Positions 1-4,448 of a DNA stretch of 43,116 nt are shown here, piece by piece (positions within the stretch are counted from its first letter, which is position 1; each line of letters begins with the position of its first letter). Position numbers and translations under genes: made by a program. The stretch is taken from the NCBI GenBank assembly GCA_003214615.1, contig QCLK01000004.1:100301-143416 (forward strand), given 5' to 3'. The notes under the pieces are model-generated. The model did no database searches. It was not told the DNA's origin and saw only the letters and a list, made by a program, of their open reading frames with translations. The DNA is from Pelagibacteraceae bacterium AG-414-E02. GTDB lineage: Bacteria > Pseudomonadota > Alphaproteobacteria > Pelagibacterales > Pelagibacteraceae.

Positions 1-45
1 CGATATAGTTAATGTCTGTTTCTTTTTTACTTTTTTTTCTTCCAT
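1..45 (-). CDS. infB: translation initiation factor IF-2, N-terminal fragment (runs off the left edge)
   Basis: Only the first 15 codons are in the window, reading MEEKKVKKKQTLTIS. A charged start followed by a TLTIS-like segment resembles the N-terminal subdomain of bacterial IF-2, the GTPase that places initiator tRNA on the 30S subunit. Position supports the call: infB directly follows nusA in most bacteria, and this ATG lies 14 bases after the nusA stop on the same strand. No ylxR (DUF448) gene lies between them, although many bacteria have one there. An out-of-frame ATG ten bases upstream does not give IF-2-like residues. The call rests mainly on synteny because so little of the protein is visible. 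Confidence 0.75.
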   Translation of the reverse strand, partial: MEEKKVKKKQTLTIS

Positions 46-59
46 AAAAACTCATATTT

Positions 60-1607
60 TTATTTAAAAACAATACTTCTAGCATTTAAAATTAAGTTGT
101 CAGCTTCATTTCTTGTTAGTGCAAATTCTTCTAAATACCCTTCTACTTTAAATCTTTTCCCTTTTTTTTCATCATAACTACCAACCAGCTCATCTGTAGC
201 AAGCTCAGCAAATTCCTTTAGTGTTTTTATTTTTTTTTCACCTAGAGTAACTAACATACCAGGCGTAAGTCCTTTTAGATTTATTAGAGAATCTTCCAAA
301 CCAAGTTCGTTTAATTTTTTCTCGATACTTTCCTTTTCTTTTTTTAAGAAATCAGCTGCTCTTTCCTTCAATTCTTTAGCAGTATTGTCATCTATAGCTT
401 CAATTTTTAAAATGTCTTCAACAGTAGATTGATGAATTTCATCTATTGAAGAAAAACCTTCTGCTACAAGGAGCTGTCCCAAAGTTTCGTCTACCTCCAA
501 ATTTTTGATAAATATTTCTGTCTTTTCTTTAAATTCTGATTGTTTCTTTTCTGACTCTTCTTTTTCAGTTAATATATCTATTTCATAATCTAATAATTTT
601 GATGCCAATCTAACATTTTGACCTCTTCGCCCAATTGCCTTACTTAAATTTTCTTCAGTTAAAATAACTTCTATTCTTCTATTTTGATCATCAATTATTA
701 CTTTTTGAATTTCTGCTGGTGCCAAAGCGCTAACGATTAAAGCTGCAGTATCTTCTGACCAGTGAACAATATCTATTTTTTCACCATGAAGCTCATTAAC
801 AACTGATTGAACTCTACTTCCTCTCATTCCAACACATGCTCCTACAGGGTCAATTGAAGAATCTTTTGAATAAACACATATTTTTGCTCTACTTCCAGGA
901 TCCCTTGCAGAATGCTTAATTTCAATAATTCCATCATAAATTTCTGGCACCTCTTGAAAAAATAGTTTTTCCATAAATTTTGGATGTGCTCTTGATAAAT
1001 GAATTTGCTGACCTTTATTTTCTCTTACTACATCAGAACAATAAGCCTTGATTCTATCTCCAGTTTTTAAAATCTCTCTTGGTATGAGTTCTTCTTTTTT
1101 AATAATAGCTTCAGCTCTATTTAAATCTACGATTACATTTCCATATTCTAATCTTTTGACAATACCACTTAAAATTTCTCCCTTTTTATCAATAAACTCA
1201 TTATATTGCCTTTCTCGCTCCGCAGCACGAACGCTTTGGGTTATTACTTGTCTAGCAGTCTGAGCTGCAATTCTTCCGAAATCTACTGGTGGCAACTTTT
1301 CAAAAATTTCATCCCCAATATTAAAGCCTTCCTTTTTTTCTTTCTGAATGGCATCTTTTAAAGAAATTTCTGTATTAAAGTTTTCTGGAACTTCTACAAT
1401 TTTTAAAACCTTGTGAAGACTGATATCTCCACTTTCTCTATCAATTATTGCCCGAATATCATTTTCAAAGCCAAATCTTGTTTTGGCAGCTTTTTGTATG
1501 GCAGATTCCATAGAAGTTAAAATAATTTCTTTATCAATAGATTTCTCTACGGCTACAGCCTCTGCTATTCTTAACAGTTCAACTTTATCAGATCTTTGGT
1601 TCAACAT
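60..1607 (-). CDS. nusA: transcription termination/antitermination factor NusA
   Basis: NusA binds RNA polymerase and nascent RNA, promotes hairpin pausing and intrinsic termination, and takes part in antitermination complexes. The 515-residue product has the family layout: an N-terminal polymerase-binding domain (about 1-125), an S1 domain starting near GEILSGIVKRLEYGNVIVDL, two KH domains (the second containing GRRGQNVRLASKLL) and two C-terminal helix-hairpin-helix acidic repeats (about 370-515). The length matches alphaproteobacterial NusA. The start is an ATG with an AGAGGAAAC purine tract about 14 bases upstream. It sits between metK and infB. A promoter and an intrinsic terminator lie in its 103-base upstream spacer, so initiation and attenuation may both be set there. 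rimP, normally just upstream, is absent at this position. Confidence 0.97.
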   Translation of the reverse strand: MLNQRSDKVELLRIAEAVAVEKSIDKEIILTSMESAIQKAAKTRFGFENDIRAIIDRESGDISLHKVLKIVEVPENFNTEISLKDAIQKEKKEGFNIGDEIFEKLPPVDFGRIAAQTARQVITQSVRAAERERQYNEFIDKKGEILSGIVKRLEYGNVIVDLNRAEAIIKKEELIPREILKTGDRIKAYCSDVVRENKGQQIHLSRAHPKFMEKLFFQEVPEIYDGIIEIKHSARDPGSRAKICVYSKDSSIDPVGACVGMRGSRVQSVVNELHGEKIDIVHWSEDTAALIVSALAPAEIQKVIIDDQNRRIEVILTEENLSKAIGRRGQNVRLASKLLDYEIDILTEKEESEKKQSEFKEKTEIFIKNLEVDETLGQLLVAEGFSSIDEIHQSTVEDILKIEAIDDNTAKELKERAADFLKKEKESIEKKLNELGLEDSLINLKGLTPGMLVTLGEKKIKTLKEFAELATDELVGSYDEKKGKRFKVEGYLEEFALTRNEADNLILNARSIVFK

Positions 1608-1627
1608 AGTTTATTTTCGTTTCCTCT

Positions 1628-1652
1628 AAAAAAAAATGGGCAAAAGCCCATT
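1628..1652 (-). terminator. intrinsic terminator/attenuator in the nusA leader
   Basis: On the minus strand AATGGGC-TTTT-GCCCATT forms a perfect 7-bp stem with a four-base loop, followed directly by nine T. It lies 58 bases after the metK stop and 20 bases before the nusA ATG. It could simply end the metK transcript. It also matches the place and general form of the alphaproteobacterial rimP-leader attenuator, a terminator hairpin in the 5' leader of the rimP-nusA-infB operon. The structure is seen; the attenuator role is inferred. Confidence 0.8.
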
Positions 1653-1678
1653 ATGCATCTTCCAGGTAACTTAATCGT

Positions 1679-1707
1679 TATTTAGTTTAATTTTTTACTT
1701 TTTTCAA
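1679..1707 (-). promoter_or_regulatory. sigma70-type promoter for nusA-infB
   Basis: On the minus strand TTGAAA (1702-1707) and TAAATA (1679-1684) are separated by exactly 17 bases, starting just after the metK stop codon. The predicted start, near 1672, would give a leader of about 65 bases that contains the terminator hairpin at 1628-1652. In A+T-rich DNA such matches arise by chance, so the support comes from the position and spacing. Confidence 0.45.
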
Positions 1708-1710
1708 GAC

Positions 1711-2874
1711 CTACTTTTTAAAAACTGCCTTTTTATCCGTTTTTTCCCAAGAAAAAGAGCCATCAGAACCTGGTTTTCTTCCAAAATGACCATAGGCTGC
1801 GGTACACTCATATATTGGTTTGTTTAAAGACAACATTTGTCTAATTCCTCTGGGGCTTAAATCAAAATTATCATTTATTAATTTTTCTACGTGTTTTGAT
1901 TTTTCTTCATCACCATCAAAAAGATCTACATAAATTGATAAAGGTTTAGATACACCAATCGCATACGCTAGTTGAATTAAACATTTATCTGCAATTTTTG
2001 AAGCAACAACATTTTTTGCAACATATCTTGCGGCATAAGCAGCAGATCTATCCACCTTACTTGGATCTTTTCCAGAAAAAGCCCCGCCTCCATGGGGTGC
2101 GGCTCCACCATAAGTGTCAACAATAATTTTTCTTCCAGTTAAACCTGAATCTCCATCAGGCCCTCCAATTATAAACTGACCGGTTGGATTAACATAAAAT
2201 TCCTCATCCTTTAATTCTGCCAATAGATTTTTTGGAATAGATTTTTCTAAATATGGCCTGACAATTTCTTTTACTTGTGCTTGATTTACTTTTGGAGAAT
2301 GTTGAGTAGAAATGACAACTGAAGTAACTTTAACTGGTTTACCATTTTCGTACATCATTGTAACTTGACTTTTTGAATCTGGTTCTAATTTGTCAGCTTT
2401 TCCATTTTTTCTATCTGCCGCCATTAATTCTAAAATTTTATGTGAATAATAAATCGGTGCCGGCATTAAAACTTCTGTTTCGTTGCAGGCATATCCAAAC
2501 ATAATTCCTTGGTCACCTGCTCCTTCGTCTTTATTACCCTTTGAATCAACACCCATAGCAATATCTGTTGATTGAGAATGTAAATGAACATCTATGTTAC
2601 AATTTTTCCAGTGAAATCCTTTTTGCTCATATCCAATATCTTTTATACATCCGCGCACTTTTTGTATTAAATCATCTTTTTTAATTTCAGGTCCTCTTGT
2701 TTCTCCAGCTAACACAACTTTGTTTGTAGTAGTAAGCGTTTCACACGCTACTCTTGATTGAGGTTCCTTAGATAAATATGTATCAACAACCATATCTGAT
2801 ATTCGATCACAAACTTTATCTGGATGCCCTTCTGAAACTGACTCACTAGTAAATAAATAAGATTTTTTGCTCAT
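1711..2874 (-). CDS. metK: S-adenosylmethionine synthetase
   Basis: MetK makes S-adenosylmethionine from methionine and ATP in the cytoplasm, supplying methyl groups for methyltransferases such as RsmG and RsmI encoded in this window. The 387 residues match the family length (E. coli 384). Visible motifs are the N-terminal ATP-binding segment [14 protein letters not shown], the central [15 protein letters not shown], and the phosphate-binding [20 protein letters not shown]. The ATG overlaps the lnt stop (TAATG), so translation is probably coupled to lnt. No SAM riboswitch lies upstream because the coding of lnt runs right up to the start. In many alphaproteobacteria trmB and rimP follow metK; here a terminator and nusA follow. 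Confidence 0.98.
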
Positions 2875-4448
2875 TAGATTTTAAATTTTTTAAAAATTAA
2901 GATTAGAAATATATACAAAAAAATTATTAAAAAATATATTTTATTTCCATATTGTGAATATAAAGTTGATTTTACAAACTGTGGCATTTTATGCTCAACA
3001 TTGCCTGATTCACTCATATCTAGAAATTTAAGTGTTCTACCATTTGGGTCGATAAAACCTGAAATGCCCTTGTTTGCTGATCTTGCAATAAAAACTCCTT
3101 CCTCAACTGATCTATAAATAGCTTTTGTGTAGTGTTGATATGGACCAATTGAGTCTCCAAACCAAGCATCTTCCGAGATGTTAATTACTAAATCAGGAAA
3201 CTGATTTTGTTTTTTTATTTTTCCAGAATAAATTATTTCGTAGCAAATTAATGGAAGGATTGATTTTTCATTAAATCTATTTCCTAAATTTATTATATTT
3301 CTTTTATCACCTGCGGAAAATGAGTTATATCCATAAGTTACTTTTTTTAATCCTAGTTTAGATAAAGTTTTTTCTAAAGGCATAAATTCTCCAAACGGAA
3401 CAAGATTAACTTTATTATATAAAGATAAAATTTCTAATTTATGATTAAAAACAACTAAGCTATTAAAATACTTTTTATTATTTTTATCTTCAGAATTAGT
3501 AAAATTGTTTATACCTAAAATAATTAAATGATTTTCAGAAAATTTTTCTTCGAACAGATTTCGATACTTTTTTACATTTTCCAAATAAGATTGATAAAAT
3601 ATTCCTTCTGGCCAAATAAACAAAGTTTTTTTATCTTTCTCAGGATCGCTAATTTTAATTAATCTTTTTAATTGAAGCTCTTCACTTTGGGTTTGATAAT
3701 CTTTAAGCGAAAAATTTGGAGAAATTATTTTAACACTTAAATTTTCTTCAAAATTATAATTATTATCAATAATTCTAAATTTTCCGTACGAGTAATTAAC
3801 AATAAAAATTACTAAAAAAATTATAATAAAAAATATATTTCTTTTTTCAAATTTTTTTTTAAAAAAAAGAAATGGGGTACAAAAAAAAGTAATTGAAATT
3901 AAACTTAGTGAGTACGTTCCTATAAAAGATAGTATTTGTATCGTCTCAAGTGACCAAGACCAAGTATATGAAATAAGATTCCAAGGAAAACCAGTTAGTA
4001 CATTTCCCCTTAAAAATTCGAATATTGAAAAAATAAGAGAAAAAATAAAAATAAATGAAATACTTTTATCAGCATAAATGCTTGATATTAAAACTGCTAA
4101 ACCAAAAAATAAAGATAAAAACAAAGGAATTAATATGAGTGCAAAAGGAATTAAACCCTTGAGCATTTCGTCATGCGTCAAGGATATTGTAATCCAATAA
4201 TTTCCCAGTAAAAAAAACCCAAATCCAAAAGCACATCCTAAATAAAAAAAATAACGGTGAGATTTTTTCTTTCTATATTTTGATTGTGTTCGTCTGCTGA
4301 TTAATAAAATTAAAAATAGTAAAGTAGAAAACGTAAAAAAATTTATAAATGAAAAATTATATGGTGCAAAACCAAGTATAGTTATAGCTCCAAGAAAAAA
4401 AGGAGCCACAAATACAACAAACAATTTGTTATTTAGTAAAACAGTCAA
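2874..4448 (-). CDS. lnt: apolipoprotein N-acyltransferase
   Basis: Lnt is an inner-membrane enzyme that adds the third acyl chain to the N-terminal cysteine of lipoproteins, the last step before Lol export. The 524-residue product has an N-terminal multi-spanning region (hydrophobic segments through about residue 220) and a periplasmic nitrilase-like domain. The catalytic triad is visible as E281 in WPEG, K346 in [13 protein letters not shown] and C402 in LPLICYEI, followed by a last hydrophobic helix. The start is TTG and overlaps the ybeY stop as TTGA; no in-frame ATG lies near, and the first membrane helix begins at once, so TTG is probably right. Likely substrates in this window are the BON, DUF3576 and LptE lipoproteins. 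corC, often between ybeY and lnt, is absent. Confidence 0.96.

Follow-up and report, generated by a model that had tools for sequence, protein, structure and literature searches.

The metK-nusA gap of Pelagibacteraceae bacterium AG-414-E02 holds a short attenuator-type element, which we read as the rimP-leader, the attenuator that precedes the nusA-infB operon, now placed directly on nusA and most likely controlled by NusA; we give this reading a probability of roughly 65%. The window, that is, the whole stretch of 43,116 nt that was analyzed, carries on its minus strand the gene order lnt, metK, gap, nusA (lnt named by eye), and the gap at 1608-1710 is precisely the interval from metK to nusA. 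Among named loci, those with the most similar nusA belong to Pelagibacteraceae. The promoter-like pair, short leader, terminator hairpin and nine T that the original prediction had described were all present in this gap (table 1).

Table 1. Features of the metK-nusA gap and its flanking genes in the window
Feature	Position	Strand	Basis and remarks
nusA	60..1607	-	NusA_N, S1 and KH by Pfam; first gene past the leader
metK	1711..2874	-	Identity by Pfam; neighbor upstream of the leader
metK stop codon	1713-1711	-	Sequence
-35-like TTGAAA, putative nusA promoter	1702..1707	-	Sequence; TTG...nA pair in 70/70 SAR11 loci
-10-like TAAATA	1679..1684	-	17-nt spacer after the -35-like element; ends 26 nt before the hairpin
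Short leader, -10 to hairpin	1653..1678	-	Sequence
Terminator hairpin AATGGGC-TTTT-GCCCATT	1635..1652	-	7 pairs, about -10 kcal/mol (window -10.1); arms AATGGGC 1652-1646 and GCCCATT 1641-1635, loop TTTT
Nine-T tract of the terminator	1628..1636	-	First two T paired in the stem as drawn
GAGGA, possible ribosome-binding site past the T tract	1622..1626	-	Sequence; putative assignment

The hairpin holds the rimP-leader core GGGC..GCCC and was listed by the terminator scan of the window, and its T tract lies 20 nt from the nusA ATG (1607). The pattern TGGGCN4GCCCAT9 had a single match in the window, even with three mismatches allowed (shuffles, mean 0.08), and GGGCN3-6GCCC..T8 occurred at one place, as two nested matches, among the matches listed for the 1.14-Mb draft assembly. 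The window's promoter pair is weak (8/12) and is absent from the list of a strict promoter scan; if it is active, transcription would be expected to start near 1672 on the minus strand. Within the leader, the segment AAGTTACCTGGA was found in most of the 17 closest loci. Downstream of nusA, in the neighboring stretch (L001), lie infB, rbfA, rpsO and pnp, named by eye from their translations.

We addressed the conservation of this arrangement in 70 SAR11 nusA loci, comprising the window, the best-scoring 30 of 183 NusA_N genomes, and 39 of 41 named SAR11 loci; because the 30 loci were taken by score, this set is rich in the sister family f2, and L066 and L072, with a nusA lacking its 5' end, were left out. 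The layout of promoter-like pair, leader, hairpin, T9 and ATG was observed in all 70 loci. The T tract was exactly nine in each of them, at a distance of 12-26 nt from the ATG; a tract of ten T was found by pattern search in genome G108, beyond the 70 loci, among the matches listed. A TTG-16..18-nA pair preceded the hairpin throughout (70/70), scoring at least 8/12 in 69 of the 70 loci versus a mean of 17.7 and a maximum of 26 of 70 in shuffles, and the -10 element stood 21-29 nt from the hairpin in 68. The hairpin core GGGC/GCCC was exact in 44 loci and closely varied in the other 26, and the loops varied widely. In family f1, all 50 genomes for which a pattern match and a nusA place were both listed have the site at nusA. 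A DNA-binding palindrome was set aside as an explanation, because a variable loop is combined here with a constant T tract, promoter and orientation.

The SAR11 leader of about 20 nt from the -10 element to the hairpin was conserved within genera and different between genera (for example CATTGTTGAA in one group and AAGTTACCTGGA in another; L044, about 3930-3955, and L034, about 3925-3950), and no structure accounts for this conservation. An alignment of 42 of the 70 SAR11 loci (A2) contained a one-column misalignment between families, and no model was built from it.

The gene order around the hairpin bears on which gene it serves. The original prediction had offered, as its simpler reading, that the hairpin only terminates the metK transcript; on this view it would do nothing for nusA. 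It is true that the window hairpin lies 58 nt past the metK stop and would also halt readthrough from metK, and that metK is directly upstream, with no trmB between it and the leader, in 40 of the 70 SAR11 loci, including the window. However, in the other 30 (27 of family f2 and three of family f1) metK and the leader are separated by trmB, and the hairpin adjoins nusA there as well; it also stands beside nusA in locus L148, where lnt-trmB is upstream, and in other alphaproteobacteria the hairpin motif adjoins rimP. Moreover, in all 70 loci the hairpin is downstream of the conserved promoter-like pair, which is the wrong side for insulation. Since the T9 tract ends only 12-26 nt before the ATG, there is no room for an ordinary promoter between the hairpin and nusA, and, judging from this geometry, any RNA for nusA, whether started at the upstream promoter or read through from metK, would have to pass the hairpin first. 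Thus, the promoter-like pair upstream, the short distance to the ATG and the trmB cases together disfavor the metK-only reading, and we consider it highly improbable.

In rimP-bearing alphaproteobacterial loci, nusA was within the stretch in 30 of 30, trmB in 25 and metK in 23, so that metK-trmB-leader-rimP-nusA is an ancestral-looking order. In SAR11, genes have been lost on both sides of the leader, which has nevertheless stayed where it was, in front of the nusA operon. Sequence comparison supports well the view that the SAR11 element is a rimP-leader kept after the loss of rimP and, in part of SAR11, of trmB.

The rimP-leader has been described as part of the 5' UTR of nusA-infB, at a distance of 4-130 nt from the first gene; it consists of a short hairpin with a GGGc..gCCC stem and a run of U, and no larger structure is conserved (PMC2965389). 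The stem, the directly following U stretch and the position in the 5' UTR of nusA-infB are all common to this general form and the window. The differences are that rimP is the first gene in the general form, whereas the SAR11 leader precedes nusA with rimP missing; that the U tract of the rimP-leader is mostly 5-8 U, one other base and then more U, in contrast to the unbroken nine of SAR11; and that the outer stem pair is A-U in SAR11 family f1 and G-C in the rimP-leader. Across 90 alphaproteobacterial regions, covering 90 of 123 rimP-bearing genomes, a leader motif of the TGGGC type precedes rimP in 53; the opposite strand gave 2, and 20 shuffles gave a mean of 1.25 with a maximum of 3.

To compare the leaders as structures, we used a covariance model (R1) built solely from 45 leaders of rimP-bearing alphaproteobacteria (alignment A1). 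Because these were 45 of 46 leaders selected by the pattern TGGG[CT]..[GA]CCC[AG], the invariance of the core within A1 is circular, but the flanking G-C pair formed no part of that pattern. R1 found the nusA leader in all 42 SAR11 sources at an E value of 1 or better; most scored 20-30 bits, the window was weak at 18.9 bits (E 0.18), and the lowest source had 15.8. In a whole-genome search, R1 matched at E 0.1 or better in 183 of the 198 genomes of the order but missed the genome from which the window comes; the 150 R1 matches listed comprise 70 at nusA, 47 at other places and 33 in genomes without a listed nusA place. R1 also found all 19 of the Deltaproteobacteria-type loci tested (of 39), with RimP between the motif and nusA in each. 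It gave no match on E. coli, although E. coli carries a hairpin of the same type, ctgggctttaggcccttttttt, before rimP. One pair of the stem, 9-32, changes from G-C (37) to A-U (26) with no mismatch, which may be one event common to relatives. Thus, the motif, the position and the R1 matches support the earlier suggestion that the leader is attenuator-type and related to the rimP-leader.

In L073, L075, L111 and other Deltaproteobacteria-type loci, AGTGGGC-loop-GCCCAC followed by T6-7, a purine and TTT lies upstream of rimP, and this whole motif is near letter-identical across distant proteobacterial groups, beyond what pairing needs.

The match to the Rfam rimP model (RF01770) that had also been proposed did not materialize. 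On the window, RF01770 reached 18.9 bits against a cut-off of 47, and a scan of the whole window at gathering thresholds returned no matches. The Rfam family occupies the same operon and position, and its E. coli member (102 bits) ends in the same hairpin type, but the model, of 102 nt, is specific to gammaproteobacteria: it stayed below its cut-off on all 11 alphaproteobacterial rimP loci tested, so the low score of the window is hardly informative. A permissive Rfam scan of 1500-1900 gave nothing above threshold; its weaker matches included rimP, at the 18.9 bits just named, and a Burkholderia sRNA on the opposite strand (24.7 bits), judged to be chance.

Twelve stretches with R1 or pattern matches away from nusA were inspected, with genes named by eye. 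Ten adjoin a periplasmic binding-protein gene, and in eight of these ten the hairpin stands between the binding-protein gene and the next TRAP-type transporter gene; the other two follow a rhodopsin-like gene. The stems of these inspected matches are mostly GGGGGC instead of TGGGC and belong to stronger-stemmed terminators. In L216-L220, L222, L225 and L226, a strong GGGGGC..GCCCCC hairpin with a T run lies near the middle, in the gap between binding protein and transporter, and it is possibly a device for making more binding protein than transporter; the match in L226 is on the strand that does not carry the genes. In L221 (about 1542) and L227 (about 1321), a GGGGCC..GGCCCC-T8 terminator follows the rhodopsin-like gene in sister family f2.

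As originally predicted, rimP is missing between the leader and nusA, and it was not found elsewhere in the genome or in relatives. No RimP N-terminal domain was detected in this genome, an 86.6% complete draft, or in any of 60 genomes consisting of this one and relatives, and the RimP C-terminal domain was found in none of the 198 genomes of the order, of which 149 are at least 90% complete. As a control, the N-terminal domain was detected in 10 of 14 control genomes and in 123 of 143 genomes of the class. The loss of rimP in SAR11 is thus well supported, and therefore RimP is excluded as the effector of the leader there.

Retention of the leader is a feature of the SAR11 lineage and not a rule. 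Among 18 rimP-less alphaproteobacterial genomes outside the order, the 14 with nusA were inspected by eye, and a clear leader was kept in only two (L148 and L150, both 24.8 bits by R1, the only two run through the model); therefore, the leader is not indispensable. L147 and L155 carry, by eye, a different hairpin and T run just upstream of nusA, perhaps as independent replacements of the leader, and in the other ten no leader hairpin was seen by eye, including L149 and L152, which have the order metK-trmB-nusA. Loss of rimP is often accompanied by loss or replacement of the leader.

NusA stimulates termination at hairpins, and we consider NusA negative feedback the likeliest mechanism in SAR11, by analogy with better-known leaders of the same operon. 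The promoter just past metK would start an RNA with a leader of about 20 nt, which would fold the weak GGGC..GCCC hairpin followed by nine U; RNA polymerase would then either stop at the hairpin, giving a transcript of about 45 nt, or continue into nusA-infB-rbfA-rpsO-pnp. When NusA is plentiful, more polymerases would most likely stop, and the operon would set its own level; readthrough from metK, if any, would be gated by the same hairpin. Naville and Gautheret (2010, PMC2965389) presented the rimP-leader as more widespread than any other transcription attenuator; of the two candidate effectors, RimP and NusA, they considered NusA probably the best, and they proposed NusA feedback. In B. subtilis, whose nusA operon begins with rimP (ylxS) (PMC2965389), NusA is autoregulated, according to a 2025 review, via NusA-stimulated termination in its own leader (PMC12288461). 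In E. coli, NusA is described as a regulator of the operon that encodes it (PMC6511841). The B. subtilis ylxS(rimP)-nusA leader, whose function was tested, resembles that of SAR11, described here from sequence, in that an intrinsic terminator precedes the first gene of the nusA operon and, probably, in negative feedback by NusA.

The T tract and the stem speak differently on how strictly the SAR11 terminator would depend on NusA. The T tract is interrupted (5-8 T, one base, more T) in 35 of 45 alphaproteobacterial rimP leaders and in 15 of 19 deltaproteobacterial ones, the other four being unparsed by the script. In SAR11, the T9 tract was unbroken in 70 of 70 loci, and a further T group followed right past one other base in two. 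NusA-dependent terminators of B. subtilis are reported to have a distally interrupted U tract (PMC8060035), so an uninterrupted run of nine U argues to some degree against a strict dependence on NusA. The weakness of the stem argues in favor of it: the nusA hairpin averages -10.5 kcal/mol, whereas eight other terminators of the order lie between -13.6 and -17.0; these eight were picked from R1 or pattern matches, a choice that favors strong ones.

Two further alternatives leave the hairpin at nusA and differ in what it responds to. It could be a fixed, unregulated partial terminator that does no more than determine how much nusA operon mRNA is made per firing of the promoter. The five leader folds had no second conserved structure or antiterminator in common, and the T tract length is constant, as if it were a tuned constant. 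However, the core and flanking G-C pair are alike in sequence across proteobacterial classes; this likeness goes beyond pairing and suggests recognition, and in B. subtilis the leader of this operon is reported to mediate feedback (PMC12288461), so we regard a fixed terminator as unlikely. Alternatively, the leader could answer to a factor other than NusA, such as NusG, an r-protein, cold or translation. The operon is described as cold-induced in E. coli (PMC6511841), and in B. subtilis intrinsic termination is reported to be a task that NusG shares with NusA (PMC8060035); against this, inspection of the nusA leader by eye revealed no boxA-like GCTCTTT such as the rRNA leader has, and RimP at least drops out in SAR11. 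We consider control by another factor distinctly unlikely, and NusA feedback remains the preferred reading.

What was known is a rimP-leader before rimP; what is new is the SAR11 form directly before nusA with an unbroken nine-U tract, and in the open-licence PMC literature we found no printed report of a SAR11 nusA leader. SAR11 are highly abundant ocean bacteria with genomes among the most compact of free-living organisms. We proposed, at even odds, that SAR11 could serve as a natural deletion experiment, in which the leader outlived rimP and partly trmB, so that the target and probably also the sensor would be nusA, and in which it would have been retuned under strong selection into a minimal NusA self-attenuator of about 45 nt with an unbroken nine-U tract and a weaker stem. 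A clade that lacks rimP but keeps the leader at nusA takes RimP off the list of effectors there, and the SAR11 leader-nusA unit is a very simple arrangement for testing NusA feedback. In these abundant marine bacteria, moreover, a regulatory leader has come through the streamlining of the genome.
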